Source: Acidobacteriota bacterium | Lineage (GTDB): Bacteria > Acidobacteriota > Vicinamibacteria > Vicinamibacterales > UBA8438 | Reading direction: 5' to 3' | Assembly: GCA_009838525.1 (NCBI GenBank) | Contig: VXRJ01000016.1 | Location: forward strand, 1 to 64,000 | Length of the DNA: 64,000 nt | Shown here: positions 54,781 through 62,066 of the stretch, one piece after another | Layout of the letters: each line of letters opens with the position of its first letter | Numbering within the stretch: position 1 is the stretch's first letter | Notes under the pieces: model-generated | Told to the model about the DNA's origin: nothing | The model's database searches: none | What the model saw: only the letters and a program-made list of their open reading frames with translations | Program-made: the position numbers and the translations under genes

Positions 54781-54788
54781 AGCGCCGG

Positions 54789-54884
54789 GTGCGCCGGCCG
54801 GTACCCCGGTCGGTGCGCCAGCCGGCACGGCGTCCGGGGCGCCAGCCGGCACGGCGTCCGGTGCGCCGGCCTCCAGGCCGGCAC
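54789..54884. repeat. Four imperfect 24-base tandem repeats after acs
   Basis: Four consecutive 24-base units start at 54789, 54813, 54837 and 54861, with core GTGCGCCAGCCGGCACGGC. Units 2 and 3 are nearly identical; units 1 and 4 diverge. In one frame they would encode the octapeptide GAPAGTAS-like repeat, but no gene covers them. Confidence 0.8.
54865..54882. terminator. GC-rich hairpin after acs (terminator-like or REP-like)
   Basis: GCCGGCCT-CC-AGGCCGGC forms a perfect 8-bp stem within the last repeat unit. No T tract follows, so it is either a weak terminator or a REP-like element. The remaining spacer to 55102 has an A/T-rich part (55030-55085, including TATATA and a CCCTA...TAGGG pair) and no gene. 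Confidence 0.45.
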
Positions 54885-55102
54885 CCTACGCCCCCTCCAA
54901 CAACCGCCGCATTTCCGCGGCCCGGCCCCGGATCCGCCCCTGCCCCCGCTTGTGAAAAGCGGACGCGGACGCCCCACACCATCGCGGTCCCGCAGGCCAC
55001 GGCTCCCGGCGCGCGGCCCAGCCAGAAAAGTTCATTAAAAAGACCCTAAATGTACATCGAACAGTCATGAGCAGCGTGTATATAGGGCATGGACAAACTG
55101 AG

Positions 55103-57772
55103 ATGTCGAAGTCGACTGCCAATGCGTCCGGGCTGCTCAAGGCAAAGGTGCTGCCGCCGGAGTTGCCATCCAGATACGTTAGCCGCCCAGCACTGCTGCA
55201 GCGCCTGGAGCACACCATGGAACGCAGGGTGACCGTGCTGCAGGCGCCCGCCGGATTCGGCAAGACAACCGTCATGGCGGACGTCGTTCGTGCGCGGAAG
55301 CGAGACGGAATGGTCGTCGCCTGGATCTCCCTGGACGTCGAGGATACGCCGAATCTCTTCGGCAGCTATCTGGCCCTTGCGCTGGAGCGGGCGGGACTGG
55401 ATCTCGGTCTGTCCGGGTCGCCCGTTACGCGGTCCGCGTGGCCAGCGTTACAGCAACTGGGCACGCTGGCCGGCGCCATTGAACAGCATGCCGCGCCGTG
55501 CCTGCTGGTGCTCGACGAAGTCGACCGCCTGCCACGGCGTACGGTCCGGCTGGTCGACCTGCTGCTGGAACACGCGCCGAGCAATCTGCACGTCGTCATG
55601 GCGTTTCGATCCAACCCGGGAGTCAACGTCGGAACACACCTCCTGAGCGGTGGAGCGATCGTGCTGGGCACGGAATCGTTCCGCGTTCAAAGGGCCGACA
55701 TAGACCGGTTCCTGGGCCGGGAACTGTCGCGGAAAGAACGGGCCGAGATCGAAGAACGCACGGCCGGCTGGCCCTTTGCGCTGATGGTCTATCGCAGCGT
55801 GGGGGGCGCCGATGCGGAACAAGCTGGTAGAGAAGCGGCGGAGCTCACCAGGAACTACATCGGCCTCCACGTGCTGCGCGACTTATCGGACAAGGAACAG
55901 GCCTGCCTTTTCGATCTCGCGGTCTTCGACTGCATCGACGGGAGCCTCGTGGATGCCGTGCTGGGATCGAACGATGCCCGCATGCTGTTGACCGCACTGC
56001 CGGCGCTCGACGGCCTGCTGCTGCCGGGTAAGGGAGACGATGCAGCGAAGCGTCTGCATCCCCTGCTCAGGGAGTACTGTCTCGATGCACTCTCCGTCGC
56101 GAATCCGGCACGCAAGCGTTCCCTCCACACGAAGATCGCACGGGAACTCGTTCGCCGAGGAGGACAACTGACGGCGTTGTGGCGGCACGCCGGCGCGGCG
56201 GCCGACAACGATCTTCTGGGCGAGCTCATCGAGCGGTCCGGGCCGTTCCAGTTGTGGCTACACGAGGGAACGGCGCGATTGGCCTCCGCGGGGCGGTTCC
56301 TGACCCGGGAAACTACCGCCCGGTATCCGCGGCTCGATCTCCTCCGCTGCATTGTTCTCTGCCTGTCGCTGAAGTGGGATGAGGCAGAGACGCTGTTCCA
56401 GACGATCTCGCAACGGACCGACGGGTTCACGCGAGACCGGGATGGCGGCAACGCGGAAGCGCTGGCCGTCGACGCGATGTTCACGCGAGCCGTCCTGAGG
56501 GGTGGCGCCGATCGGCTCCTGCCTCACGAACTCGAATCACGGTTTCCGGCAGGAGATCCGCTGCCCGGTGATGAAGAGGGTCGGGCCCTCGCCTGCGCCC
56601 GGCACACCATGCTCTGCATTGCGTGCTACGAACATGCGAGCTTCGAGGAGAGCGCGCGGCACGGCCTGCGGGCGCAGGCGCACTTCCGGAAGGATGGGTG
56701 TTTCTTCCGGATCGTTCTGGACGCCTGCCTCGGGATGGCAGCAATGGCGCAGGGGCGCGTGCAGGAGGCCGTTGAAAAATACCGGGACATCCGGCGGGCC
56801 ACCAGGAAGTTCTTCCCGGCCGATCCCTGGATCAGCGCCATCAGCAACGCACTGACTATTGAACTCGATCTCGAACGGAACCGCGTGAGGGCGGTCCGGC
56901 GCAAGACTCTGGAGCGCCTCACGCAGTCGCAGGGCGTTTGGGCCGATGGCTATTCGACGAGCGTAGCGGTGAGCGCCGAGTTGCTGTTCGAGCAGTGCGG
57001 TGAGGCAGAGGCCATCCAGCTCCTGACAAGGTCGGTTGACCGCGTTCGGGCGACGCGCAACCGGAGCCTGTTGAACACTATCTCGGCACTGCTGGCGGAC
57101 TACCTGACGCAGGCGGGCCAGTCGGAGCAGGCCGGAGCGGTATGGCGCGACCACGCGTTGCCGTGCGACGCCGCCGAACTGCTCGACCTGGAGCGGCAGT
57201 CATGGCGAACGATGGAAGCCCTGTCGTGCGCACGAATCCGGCTGTTGGAGGCGCAGGGCGAGTTCGACGCCGCCAGCGAGCTCGCGCACAACCTGGGCCG
57301 TGTTGCGGGGGATCGCGGCCTGGTCCGCACGCTGCTCCGGGGCATTGCGTTGTCGATGTCGGTCGCCCACCGCGCAGGTCAACCCGATCGCGCGCTGGAA
57401 CGTCTGGTCGGGTTTATCCGCGCCACGCGTGGCGTCGACTACACGAGGCCGCTGGTGCGCCAGCGTGAGGTGAGCCGGCTCGTCCTGCAACGGCTTCTCG
57501 ACACGGACTGCGACGACGACCTGCGGCCGGCGGCCGAGTCGTTACTGGCCCAGGTAGTCGGGCCGGAGACGGGCAGCCCGTGCTTCTCGCCGCGTGAGCG
57601 GGAGATCCTGACGCACGTGGCTCGCGGCTTGCGCAACAAGGAGATAGCGGAGCTTCTCGAAATCACCGAAGAGGGCGTCCGCTACCACTTGAAGAACATC
57701 TACCGGAAGACAGGCATCAACAAACGGGCCGAAGCGGTCAGCCGCGCCCAGGCGATCGGCTCGCTCTCCTGA
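55103..57772 (+). CDS. MalT-like STAND ATPase / LuxR transcriptional regulator (copy 1)
   Basis: This 889-residue regulator starts at ATG 55103, matching the start of its paralogue; 12 more codons upstream are open. Order: NTPase with Walker A APAGFGKTT (Lys54) and Walker B LLVLDEVD (Asp138), winged-helix region, a long helical tetratricopeptide-like middle (about 340-800), and a LuxR/GerE helix-turn-helix (about 830-889; FSPREREILTHVARGLRNKEIAELL). This is the MalT architecture, in which ATP and an inducer drive oligomerisation and activation. The inducer is unknown. A paralogue lies 1.6 kb downstream. Confidence 0.92.
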   Translation: MSKSTANASGLLKAKVLPPELPSRYVSRPALLQRLEHTMERRVTVLQAPAGFGKTTVMADVVRARKRDGMVVAWISLDVEDTPNLFGSYLALALERAGLDLGLSGSPVTRSAWPALQQLGTLAGAIEQHAAPCLLVLDEVDRLPRRTVRLVDLLLEHAPSNLHVVMAFRSNPGVNVGTHLLSGGAIVLGTESFRVQRADIDRFLGRELSRKERAEIEERTAGWPFALMVYRSVGGADAEQAGREAAELTRNYIGLHVLRDLSDKEQACLFDLAVFDCIDGSLVDAVLGSNDARMLLTALPALDGLLLPGKGDDAAKRLHPLLREYCLDALSVANPARKRSLHTKIARELVRRGGQLTALWRHAGAAADNDLLGELIERSGPFQLWLHEGTARLASAGRFLTRETTARYPRLDLLRCIVLCLSLKWDEAETLFQTISQRTDGFTRDRDGGNAEALAVDAMFTRAVLRGGADRLLPHELESRFPAGDPLPGDEEGRALACARHTMLCIACYEHASFEESARHGLRAQAHFRKDGCFFRIVLDACLGMAAMAQGRVQEAVEKYRDIRRATRKFFPADPWISAISNALTIELDLERNRVRAVRRKTLERLTQSQGVWADGYSTSVAVSAELLFEQCGEAEAIQLLTRSVDRVRATRNRSLLNTISALLADYLTQAGQSEQAGAVWRDHALPCDAAELLDLERQSWRTMEALSCARIRLLEAQGEFDAASELAHNLGRVAGDRGLVRTLLRGIALSMSVAHRAGQPDRALERLVGFIRATRGVDYTRPLVRQREVSRLVLQRLLDTDCDDDLRPAAESLLAQVVGPETGSPCFSPREREILTHVARGLRNKEIAELLEITEEGVRYHLKNIYRKTGINKRAEAVSRAQAIGSLS

Positions 57773-57829
57773 GGGAAACGCCGAGACGCCGCCGCGATGC
57801 CGCGTGCCACCGCTGCGAGACTCAGCGAT

Positions 57830-57999
57830 CGGTTAGCAGCTCCACGCCCCCAGTGAGCGCCCGGCGCCACGACGGGTGGTCGGAGCGCATTGAATACTAC
57901 CTCCAATAACTTCCAACCTACCGGTGCCCCTGTCACTAACCGTCGGTTAATAAAGGGGTAGTCTGTTTCCGGTTAAGGGGAGGCGCCTTGACTAACCGG
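57830..57999. promoter_or_regulatory. Cluster of TAACCG/CGGTTA sites before the PAS-LuxR gene
   Basis: In the 279-base spacer: CGGTTA at 57830, the palindrome TAACCG-T-CGGTTA at 57937-57949, CCGGTTAA at 57969-57976, and TAACCGG at 57993-57999 just after a TTGACT -35-like element (57988-57993). This looks like multiple operator sites of one factor. GGGGTAG near 57956 and CTACC near 57917 resemble the array before the second STAND gene. Confidence 0.55.
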
Positions 58000-58051
58000 C
58001 TCGGCGGCCAGTGCAGTTGTCGCGAGGATCCAGACAACCTCGGGACTTGAC

Positions 58052-59188
58052 ATGGCCGACCAGAACGCGTTCGAGCGCTTCGTGTTGTCGTTGCATGATT
58101 CCATGCTCGACGATACGAACTGGCCTGTCACATCGGCCCTGATTGACGAGGCCTGCGGCCTGACGGGCAATACGATGATGGTCGGCGAAGGCCCGAGGGA
58201 CGACCGGCGTGTGCAGTTCGTCGGACTCTACCAGCGAGGAGAACGCCGCCACGACCTCGAGCGCGAATACCTCACTACCTACCATCCCATCGATGAACGC
58301 GTGCCGCGAATACGGCAACTGCCTGACAGCAGGCTGGTGCACGTCAACGACCAGTACACGCCCGAGGAGCTGAAAACTTCGCCTGTCTACAACGATGCCT
58401 TACTGCGGGCGGGGCACCAGAATAGCCTGGCGGTACGTATGGACGGGCCGGATGGGTCCGACATCGCGATGAACCTTGGCGATCCCGTTGCCGGAAGTGA
58501 CTGGGGATCTCCGCAGCTCAAGATGATCGCGAGAATTCTGCCGCAGATTCGGCAATTCGTCCGCGTGCGGCAAGCGCTGGTCCGGACGGAAGCGCGGAAC
58601 GCGACGGCGACCAGCCTCCTTGAGAACACTCGGGTAGGCATCGTCCACCTGGATCGGCACGGGAAGATCCTGGAGGTGAATGACCGTGCCCGCGGCATCC
58701 TGCGGAGGGCCGACGGTTTGTCGGACCGGGATGGAGCGCTGCGTGCCAGTACGCCGGCGGATCAGATCCGCCTCGAAAGGCTATTGGCCCAGGCGTTGCC
58801 GACCTCGGCAACCATCCCGCTCAGCGGGTCGATGCTGCTCCGCCGCTCGTCGGCGTCACACCCCTTCGCCGTGCACGCCAAGCCCGTGCGCGCCCCGCAA
58901 CCGGACTATGGGGCGCGGCACGTTGTCGCGCTTGTACTGGTCGTCGAGCCGGGGCGCCGGCAACGTGTCGCACCCGACCTGGTAGCCACGACTCTTGGCC
59001 TGACGCCAAGGGAGAGTCAGGTGGCGGTGTGGCTGGCGGAGGGCAAGAGCGTGCGCGAGATCGCCGAGGTCGCAGGGCTCACGACCAACGCCGTTCATTG
59101 GCATCTGAAGCAGATCTACCAGAAGAAGTCCATCTCCGGGCAAGTGGATTTGGTACGGCTGGTGTTGTCGGTCGCCGAGGTCGCGTAA
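58052..59188 (+). CDS. PAS-domain LuxR-family transcriptional regulator
   Basis: This 378-residue regulator has no signal. The N-terminal ~180 residues look like a sensory domain (with HPIDERVPRIRQLPD and a small-ligand-like core). A PAS-like stretch follows at 190-300 (RVGIVHLDRHGKILEVNDRARGIL). The C-terminal ~64 residues are a LuxR helix-turn-helix (LTPRESQVAVWLAEGKSVREIAEVAGL). It lies between the two STAND-LuxR paralogues on the same strand but in its own transcription unit. Probably a cytosolic sensor, with ligand unknown. Confidence 0.9.
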   Translation: MADQNAFERFVLSLHDSMLDDTNWPVTSALIDEACGLTGNTMMVGEGPRDDRRVQFVGLYQRGERRHDLEREYLTTYHPIDERVPRIRQLPDSRLVHVNDQYTPEELKTSPVYNDALLRAGHQNSLAVRMDGPDGSDIAMNLGDPVAGSDWGSPQLKMIARILPQIRQFVRVRQALVRTEARNATATSLLENTRVGIVHLDRHGKILEVNDRARGILRRADGLSDRDGALRASTPADQIRLERLLAQALPTSATIPLSGSMLLRRSSASHPFAVHAKPVRAPQPDYGARHVVALVLVVEPGRRQRVAPDLVATTLGLTPRESQVAVWLAEGKSVREIAEVAGLTTNAVHWHLKQIYQKKSISGQVDLVRLVLSVAEVA

Positions 59189-59213
59189 CCGCGGCCCGGT
59201 CGTCGTTCGGGGT

Positions 59214-59308
59214 CAGTCCGGGTAGCGCGCTTCCGCCTCTCCCTACCAACTTGGGTAGGGACAGATCCCCCTCCAGTTGGATAGTACTGATCCCCCCAGT
59301 CTGGGTAG
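59214..59308 (+). promoter_or_regulatory. Array of four GGGTAG-type direct repeats before the second STAND-LuxR gene
   Basis: Four copies: CAGTCCGGGTAG (59214-59225), CCAACTTGGGTAG (59246-59258), CCAGTTGGATAG (59273-59284) and CCAGTCTGGGTAG (59296-59308). Copies 2-4 are separated by GATCCCCC-containing linkers. Copy 2 is embedded in an imperfect dyad CTACCAACTTGGGTAG. Repeat ends are 33, 26 and 24 bases apart. MalT-type activators bind short direct repeats of comparable form. Confidence 0.65.
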
Positions 59309-59383
59309 CACCCGGTGTTCAGGTCTGACCACAGCGGCTGATTCACCGCCCAGCCGGAGCGCTGGACTCCGGCGACTGCTGAG

Positions 59384-62044
59384 ATGTCGAAGTCGAGTAT
59401 CAATGCGTCCGGGCTGCTCAAGGCAAAGGTGCTGCCGCCGGAATTGCCGTCCGGCTACGTGAGCCGTCCCGCACTATTGCAGCGCCTCGAGGACATGCTG
59501 GAACGGCGGGTTACGGTGCTGCAGGCGCCCGCCGGATTCGGCAAGACGACCGTCATGGCGGACATCGCTCGTGCGCGGAAGCAGGAGGGAGCAGTCGTCG
59601 CCTGGATCTCATTGGACGACGAAGATACGCCGAGTCTCTTCGGCGGCTATCTGGCCCTTGCGTTGGAGCAGGCGGGACTGGATCTGTCCGTGTCGCACGA
59701 TGCGTGGTCCGCGGCGCCAGCAGTAGAACAGATAGGCACGCTGGCCGGCGCCATTGAACGGCATGCCGCCCCGTGCCTGCTTGTGCTCGACGAAGTCGAC
59801 CGCTTGCCGAAGTGCACGGTCCGGCTGGTTGACCTGCTGTTGCAGCGCGCGCCACCCAATCTGCACCTCGTCATGGCGTTTCGGTCCAATCCGGGATTCA
59901 ACGTCGGAACGCACCTCCTGAGCGGTGGGGCGACCATACTCGGCCCGGAATCGTTCCGGGTCCAAAAGGCCGACATAGCCCGGTTCCTGGGCCGGACACT
60001 ATCCAGAAAGGAACTGGCCCAGATCGAGGAACGCACGGCCGGTTGGCCGTTTGCGCTGATGGTCCATCGCAACATGGGCGGTGCCGTCGCAGGACAAACT
60101 GGCGGAGAAACGACGCAGCTCACGAAGAACTACATCGGTTTCCACATGCTGCGCGACTTATCTGACAAGGAACGGTCCTGCCTGTTCGATCTCGCGGTCT
60201 TCGACTGGATCGACGCGAGCCTCGTGGATGCCGTCCTGGGATCGGACGATGCCCGCGCGGTGGTTTCCGCACTGCCGGCGCTCGACGGCCTGCTGCTGCC
60301 GAGCAAGGGCGACCATGCAGAAAAGCGCCTGCATCCCCTGCTCAGGGAGTACTGCCTCGATGAGCTCTCCGGCGTAAACCCGGCACGCAAGCGTTCCCTC
60401 CACAGGAAGATCGCACTGGAACTCGTTCGCCGGGACCAATTGACGGAGTCGTCGCGTCACGCCCGAGCGGCGGGCGACAACGATCTGCTCGCCGAGATCG
60501 TCGAGCGGTTCGGACCATTCCAATTGTGGCTACGCGGGGGAACCGCGCGGTCGTTCTCCGCGGGTCGGTTCCTGACCCCGGAAGTTACGGCTCGGTATCC
60601 GCGGCTCGATCTCCTCCGCTGCATCGTTCTCCGTCTGTCGCAGAAGTCGGATGAGGCGGAGACGCTGTTCCAGACGGTCTCGCAACGGACCGACGGCTTT
60701 GCGCGGGACCGGGATGGCGGAAACGCCGATGCGCTGGCCATCGACGCGGGGTTCACTCAGGCCTTTCTGAGGGGTGGCATCGATGGGCTCTTGCCTCAGC
60801 GGCTCGAATCGCGGCTCCCGGCGGGAGAACCGGCGGCCGGTGATGAACAGGGCCGGATCCTTGCCGTCGCCAGACACACGATGCTCTGCATTGCCTGCTG
60901 CGAACGCGCGAGCTTCGAGGATGGCGCGCGGCACGGCCTGCACGCGCAAGCACGCGTCGGGAAGGATGAACGTTTCGCCGGGATCATCCTGGATGCCTGC
61001 CTGGGGACGGCGGCAATGGCGCAAGGGCGCGTGCAGGAGGCGGCCGAGAAATACCAGAACGTCCGGCGGGCCGCCAGAAAGTTTTTCCCTGCCGATGCCT
61101 GGCTCGCCGCCGGCACCAACGCGCTGACTCTCGAACTCGATCTCGAGCGCAACCATGTAAGGGGGATCCGACGCAAGACTCTGGAGCGTCTGACGCAGGC
61201 GCAGGGCGTCTGGGCCGATAGCTACTCGACGAACGTCGCGGTGAGCGCCGAGTTGATGTTCGAGCACTACGGCGGGACGGCGGTCATCCAGCTCCTGACG
61301 CGGTCGGTCGACAATGTGAGGCCGACGGGCAACAAGAGCCTGTTGAACACCGTCTCGGCGCTGCTGGCAGACTACCTGACGCAGGCGGGGCAGTCGGAGC
61401 AGGCCGGAGCGATCTGGCGCGACCACGAGTTGCCGTGCGAGGCCGCCGAACTGTGCGACCTGAAGCAGCAGTCGTGGCGAACGATGGAAGCCCTGTCGTG
61501 CGCACGGATCCGCCTTCTGGAGGCGCAGGGCGAGTTCGACGCCGCCGACGGCCTCGCGGCTAGTCTGTGCCGTGTTGCCGGGAACCGCGGTCTCATCCGG
61601 ACGCTCCTGCGGGGTCTGGCGCTATCGATGTCTGTCGCCCACAGCGCGGGCCGGCGCGATCGCGCGCTCGAACACCTGGTCAGGTTCATCCATGCAGCCC
61701 ACGGCGTCGACTACACGAGACCGCTCGTGCGCGCGCGTGAGGTCAGCGCCGTCGTCCTGCAAGGCCTACTCGACACGGACGGCAACGACCATCTCCGGCC
61801 GGCAGCCGAGTCGCTGCTGGTCCAGGTAGCCCGGCGGGATACGGACATCCCTTTGTTTTCGTCGCGTGAGCTGGAGGTGCTGGCGCTCGCGGCTCGCGGT
61901 CTGCGCAACAAGGAGATAGCGGGTCGGCTCGAAATCACCCACGAGGGCGTCCGCTACCATCTGAAGAGCATCTATCGCAAATCAGGCACCAGCAGACGGG
62001 CCAATGCGGTACGGCACGCCCAGTCGATCGGCGCGCTCTCCTGA
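59384..62044 (+). CDS. MalT-like STAND ATPase / LuxR transcriptional regulator (copy 2)
   Basis: This 886-residue paralogue of the gene at 55103 is closely similar from the first codons (LLKAKVLPPELPS, APAGFGKTTVMAD) to the end. It has the same Walker A, Walker B LLVLDEVDRL, helical middle and LuxR helix-turn-helix (FSSRELEVLALAARGLRNKEIAGRL). Differences concentrate around residues 95-110, in the middle region and in the HTH, suggesting divergent inducer and DNA specificity. Its spacer contains a four-copy GGGTAG repeat array. Copies and the PAS-LuxR gene are all on the plus strand. Confidence 0.92.
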   Translation: MSKSSINASGLLKAKVLPPELPSGYVSRPALLQRLEDMLERRVTVLQAPAGFGKTTVMADIARARKQEGAVVAWISLDDEDTPSLFGGYLALALEQAGLDLSVSHDAWSAAPAVEQIGTLAGAIERHAAPCLLVLDEVDRLPKCTVRLVDLLLQRAPPNLHLVMAFRSNPGFNVGTHLLSGGATILGPESFRVQKADIARFLGRTLSRKELAQIEERTAGWPFALMVHRNMGGAVAGQTGGETTQLTKNYIGFHMLRDLSDKERSCLFDLAVFDWIDASLVDAVLGSDDARAVVSALPALDGLLLPSKGDHAEKRLHPLLREYCLDELSGVNPARKRSLHRKIALELVRRDQLTESSRHARAAGDNDLLAEIVERFGPFQLWLRGGTARSFSAGRFLTPEVTARYPRLDLLRCIVLRLSQKSDEAETLFQTVSQRTDGFARDRDGGNADALAIDAGFTQAFLRGGIDGLLPQRLESRLPAGEPAAGDEQGRILAVARHTMLCIACCERASFEDGARHGLHAQARVGKDERFAGIILDACLGTAAMAQGRVQEAAEKYQNVRRAARKFFPADAWLAAGTNALTLELDLERNHVRGIRRKTLERLTQAQGVWADSYSTNVAVSAELMFEHYGGTAVIQLLTRSVDNVRPTGNKSLLNTVSALLADYLTQAGQSEQAGAIWRDHELPCEAAELCDLKQQSWRTMEALSCARIRLLEAQGEFDAADGLAASLCRVAGNRGLIRTLLRGLALSMSVAHSAGRRDRALEHLVRFIHAAHGVDYTRPLVRAREVSAVVLQGLLDTDGNDHLRPAAESLLVQVARRDTDIPLFSSRELEVLALAARGLRNKEIAGRLEITHEGVRYHLKSIYRKSGTSRRANAVRHAQSIGALS

Positions 62045-62066
62045 GGGACGAGTAACATCCTCCGCC

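Follow-up and report, generated by a model that had tools for sequence, protein, structure and literature searches.

The locus lies within a 64-kb stretch of Acidobacteriota DNA (the window) and comprises two genes for MalT-type STAND-LuxR regulators, STAND-A and STAND-B, flanking a gene for a PAS-LuxR regulator, all three on the plus strand (Table 1). The first-pass annotation had read the cluster as a duplicated STAND gene accompanied by a PAS-LuxR gene, which proved right, and its coordinates, strand and lengths were confirmed. The 889-residue length of STAND-A holds only with the ATG at 55103, as the mechanically called ORF starts at 55067 and encodes 901 residues. The cluster is made up of known kinds of proteins, with a new wiring and a testable candidate operator.

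Table 1 Features of the STAND/PAS-LuxR locus (positions in the window)
Feature	Position	Strand	Description
STAND-A	55103..57772	+	MalT-type STAND-LuxR regulator, 889 aa from ATG 55103
Intergenic region 5' of PAS-LuxR gene	57773..58051	.	Five CGGTTA half-sites
PAS-LuxR gene	58052..59188	+	378 aa; N-terminal domain of ~180 aa, PAS about 188-300, GerE HTH 317-370
Palindromic box CTACCAACTTGGGTAG	59243..59258	.	Inside CCCTACCAACTTGGGTAGGG (59241-59260); candidate PAS-LuxR operator, STAND-B promoter
Second, weaker box-like site	59266..59287	-	10.2 bits
STAND-B	59384..62044	+	MalT-type STAND-LuxR regulator, 886 aa; target slot 3' of box

The cluster had been described as having no adjacent metabolic gene. 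This is incorrect: acsA, coding for acetate-CoA ligase, ends 322 bp 5' of STAND-A, and genes for malate synthase G, slightly beyond acsA, and for a GNAT protein are also found on that side. On the other side, STAND-B is followed by xthA and a TonB-dependent receptor gene. A short GC-rich tandem repeat with a 12/24-bp spacing is located directly 3' of the acsA stop codon (54782-54877). A scan for sigma-70 promoters found none.

Both STAND proteins share with MalT and the MalT-like LuxR/LAL activators an N-terminal NOD with a P-loop (APAGFGKTT), a C-terminal GerE HTH and possibly a TPR-like region. Their NOD matches MalT in a profile comparison (PDB 8bob; residues 8-373, E = 2.3e-39), the P-loop residues G51, G53, K54, T55 and T56 are invariant across 13 members, and the GerE HTH is recognized with E values of 6e-15 and 6e-13. 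The TPR_MalT match is weak, at 28 to 31 bits for a cut-off of 45. In contrast with MalT itself, the two proteins score only 168 and 173 bits against the equivalog NF003420, for which the cut-off is 537 bits, they are duplicated and adjoin a PAS-LuxR gene, and no maltose genes are present among their scanned neighbors. Membership in a defense system was considered and rejected, as PADLOC returned only HTH-level CARF matches. A third STAND copy in the same genome, 54% identical, has an inverted repeat, GTAGTGTC...GACACTAC, in its promoter region (L039, upstream of 6494).

The PAS-LuxR protein resembles the Streptomyces regulators PimM and PteF in combining a probable PAS domain with a LuxR-type HTH, and differs from them by its additional N-terminal domain. 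The C-terminal HTH is clear (GerE, E = 1e-10). The PAS domain is faint in this protein alone (E = 0.006, no single-sequence Pfam match) and emerges from the family, with PAS_8 detected in 14 of 20 members and PAS_4 in five. A single-sequence AlphaFold2 model of the N-terminal region was unusable (pLDDT of 39).

STAND-A and STAND-B have the same residue at 679 of 889 aligned positions (76%, end to end), and the similarity claimed to run from CTGAGATGTCGAAGTCGA to the stop was borne out. Identity calculated in blocks of 50 residues ranges from 0.64 to 0.88, being highest in the N-terminal P-loop block (0.88) and lowest at the LuxR HTH end (0.64-0.69). Both genes are intact and under purifying selection (NG86: dN of 0.136, dS of 0.362), so that neither is the pseudogenized copy that would have told against the first-pass reading. 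At the DNA level, homology detected by blastn extends from 55098 to 57776 and from 59379 to 62048 and stops there at both ends, and the flanks of the two genes show no likeness beyond that of shuffled controls. The promoters of STAND-A and STAND-B are therefore unrelated. With a dN of 0.14, a dS of 0.36 to 0.44 and homology confined to the coding sequences, the proposal of a recent tandem duplication is doubtful; by these sequence measures the duplication appears old or moderately old rather than fresh.

The genus of this bacterium is sampled by one genome. Matches to STAND-B are present in 12 of 28 family genomes, its own included, several of them at the HTH end only. At a threshold of 1e-60 the STAND subfamily occurs in eight of the 162 genomes examined from the order, each of which belongs to the same family, with none outside it; one distant relative is found in a Pseudomonadota MAG. 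The PAS-LuxR query has matches in seven of ten genera, some restricted to the HTH, and this family has expanded: a single genome can contain up to 14 matches when fragments are counted, and some genomes have about ten copies. In one family genome (G027), two duplicated segments that are 98% identical (L041, 6430-10827; L042, 8775-13156) each carry a split, inverted STAND gene, with residues 2-470 encoded on the minus strand, residues 402-878 on the plus strand and a 191-bp inverted repeat. An intact copy, about 95 to 99% identical, is present in L043. The split form may reflect decay of a copy, an artifact of assembly or an arrangement able to invert.

One alternative to a joint function is that independent orphan LuxR-type regulators have gathered in a variable region and are functionally unlinked. 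Consistent with this idea, both families are multicopy and fast moving with many remnants, most STAND copies (those of G003, G004, G025 and G027 and the copy C18 of the window's own genome) have no adjoining PAS-LuxR gene, and the three-gene order, whose conservation had been put forward as a check, is absent from all 27 relatives in the family. However, linkage of the two gene types recurs in three genera (g1, g4 and g10). In two genomes of g4 (G006 and G008), a STAND gene whose product is 58% identical to STAND-B has a PAS-LuxR gene on either side, and in g10 (G024) a PAS-LuxR gene adjoins a broken STAND gene that is closest to that of G006. The intact STAND proteins linked to PAS-LuxR genes form a single clade (support 99/97), in which STAND-A and STAND-B are sisters and the g4 protein is sister to the pair. 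The maintenance of this linkage in two further genera argues for a joint function. Since the g4 STAND gene already adjoins PAS-LuxR genes, the association probably predates the duplication of STAND-A and STAND-B, and the proposal that a sensor gene was inserted between two copies looks wrong. Together with the position of the operator motif described below, these observations make a chance gathering of unlinked neighbors unlikely, albeit one to be taken seriously.

A 16-bp palindrome of the CTACCAATTYGGGTAG type is common to the promoters of PAS-LuxR relatives, 5' of the PAS-LuxR gene itself, and is often repeated 35 to 90 bp 3' of its stop codon, ahead of the next gene. A strict, family-wide search with the exact pattern was too restrictive to reveal any enrichment relative to the control, and a motif model was needed. 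The model was trained on the promoters of 21 relatives, excluding the window and all downstream regions, and reached a log-likelihood of 82.7 versus 57.5 to 66.1 for six shuffled sets. Its best match on both strands of the window is at 59239-59260, exactly within the 195-bp gap between the PAS-LuxR gene and STAND-B, where the reverse orientation scores 13.1 bits. The second, weaker site is followed by a third element resembling a half-site, GGGTAG, near 59304. A 19-mer around the palindrome occurs once in the genome, even when up to three mismatches are allowed, as expected of a dedicated local operator. Across the family, a box of at least 11 bits lies within 120 bp 3' of 9 of 31 PAS-LuxR genes versus 7 of 264 other genes (Fisher, 3e-6), and the boxes of several of the best control genes themselves adjoin a PAS-LuxR gene. 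Many family members have one box only and some have none. The motif scan found no box in the promoter of the window's own PAS-LuxR gene, and autoregulation thus appears to be lost or altered there.

Known PAS-LuxR regulators bind a 16-bp CT...AWWT...AG palindrome with the consensus CTVGGGAWWTCCCBAG (PMC9774167). The candidate operator shares its length, CT...AG ends and AT-rich center with the sites of PimM and PteF (PMC9774167), and differs in its half-site, CTACC instead of CTVGG. Upstream and downstream boxes are more alike within a module than across modules (14.1 versus 11.3 of 22 positions, permutation p = 6e-4), and box similarity tracks that of the PAS-LuxR HTH (Mantel r = 0.34, p = 0.0016), a correlation that may stem in part from shared ancestry. 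Such coupling points to the PAS-LuxR protein as the reader of the box. Alternatively, the box could be bound by another regulator or by the STAND proteins at both PAS-LuxR and STAND promoters, which would make the PAS-LuxR gene a target. Boxes do precede PAS-LuxR genes, as would fit an upstream factor, and in Streptomyces the STAND-type PimR activates pimM (PMC5930380). We nevertheless find this improbable, as boxes are also present in three genomes with PAS-LuxR genes but no close STAND relative (G002, G007 and G009) and their variants follow the PAS-LuxR HTH and agree between the two boxes of a module. Furthermore, MalT binds asymmetric direct repeats rather than palindromes. That the downstream palindromes, inverted repeats placed shortly after stop codons, are merely transcription terminators of the PAS-LuxR genes is very hard to credit, since in the window no T-run follows the palindrome and a terminator scan gives none there, and since these palindromes share their sequence with the upstream box, which is unexpected of a terminator.

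We thus favor, with moderate confidence, a local regulatory relay in which the PAS-LuxR protein would directly control STAND-B through the palindrome at 59243-59258. The joint circuit suggested in the first-pass annotation thereby gains a concrete candidate link, with binding by the PAS-LuxR protein presumed. The latter would act as a one-component sensor and recognize a 16-bp palindrome particular to its own paralog; in the family, the copy 5' of the PAS-LuxR gene would serve autoregulation and the downstream copy would front the target gene. The box would place STAND-B under PAS-LuxR control, probably by activation rather than repression. Both STAND proteins are predicted to be inducer- and ATP-gated activators of the MalT type, and each of the three proteins presumably senses a ligand. 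Having the same architecture and unrelated promoters, one STAND copy would depend on the PAS-LuxR protein and the other would not: STAND-B would be a second-tier, inducer-gated activator, and STAND-A independent of PAS-LuxR.

The region upstream of the PAS-LuxR gene has a feature of its own. CGGTTA occurs at 57830, 57937, 57944, 57970 and 57993, i.e., five times in 169 bp of this 279-bp region, out of 18 occurrences in the 64 kb, and the palindrome TAACCGTCGGTTA at 57937-57949 is the sole TAACCGN0-3CGGTTA in the genome. As a conserved operator CGGTTA was rejected, as it is absent from all the relatives' PAS-LuxR promoters, and it is a local oddity. The half-sites nevertheless suggest a second input to the PAS-LuxR gene. 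Binding of a STAND protein to them is a possible conjecture, by analogy with PimR acting on the PAS-LuxR gene pimM in Streptomyces (PMC5930380). The two systems are alike in that genes for a large STAND-type and a PAS-LuxR regulator adjoin and that the regulators act in a hierarchy (PMC5930380), which in the window is suggested by the box at 59243. They differ in that the box would place the PAS-LuxR protein above STAND-B, with the STAND regulator downstream, that PimR binds DNA by its SARP domain whereas the STAND proteins of the window have a LuxR HTH, and that no biosynthetic cluster is recognized at this locus.

A broader reading, which we put forward tentatively, joins a two-step relay to a family-wide, proliferating module. 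In the relay, STAND-A or another factor would act on the CGGTTA cluster to switch the PAS-LuxR gene, whose product would act on the palindrome to switch STAND-B, and STAND-B would act on distant targets. In the module, arranged as box, PAS-LuxR gene, box and cargo, each PAS-LuxR copy would evolve its own operator and capture a different cargo, such as caspase-like proteases, LRR proteins or STAND switches. For a great many orphan LuxR-type and STAND regulators no target is known; in this case, a specific candidate operator is paired with its likely reader and a candidate target gene. If correct, box-flanked modules would be natural pairs of regulator and operator diverging in parallel within single genomes, and would also offer a way into the question of how certain bacterial caspase-like proteases are turned on.

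The slot beside the box is held by STAND-B in this genome; in relatives, the genes located near boxes include those for caspase-like Peptidase_C14/Sel1 proteins, LRR proteins, a DUF4384 protein, a type III polyketide synthase and a 375-residue protein without annotation. PimM and PteF target polyene genes; in this family, the candidate targets include single neighbors (STAND, caspase, LRR). Peptidase_C14/Sel1 genes lie near boxes in G024 (C168) and G008 (C197 and C77), and remnants of such genes in G006 (C478 and C115) and G008 (C145); no Peptidase_C14 was found in the window's own genome. These genes, several of them broken, recurrently adjoin a PAS-LuxR gene and box (L076, 2-3831; L077, 741-3552; L046, 5077-15693). 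Also near PAS-LuxR genes of relatives, a GPP34 (Golgi phosphoprotein 3) domain is fused to a cytochrome P450 (L087, 526-2517; L046, 12179-14158).
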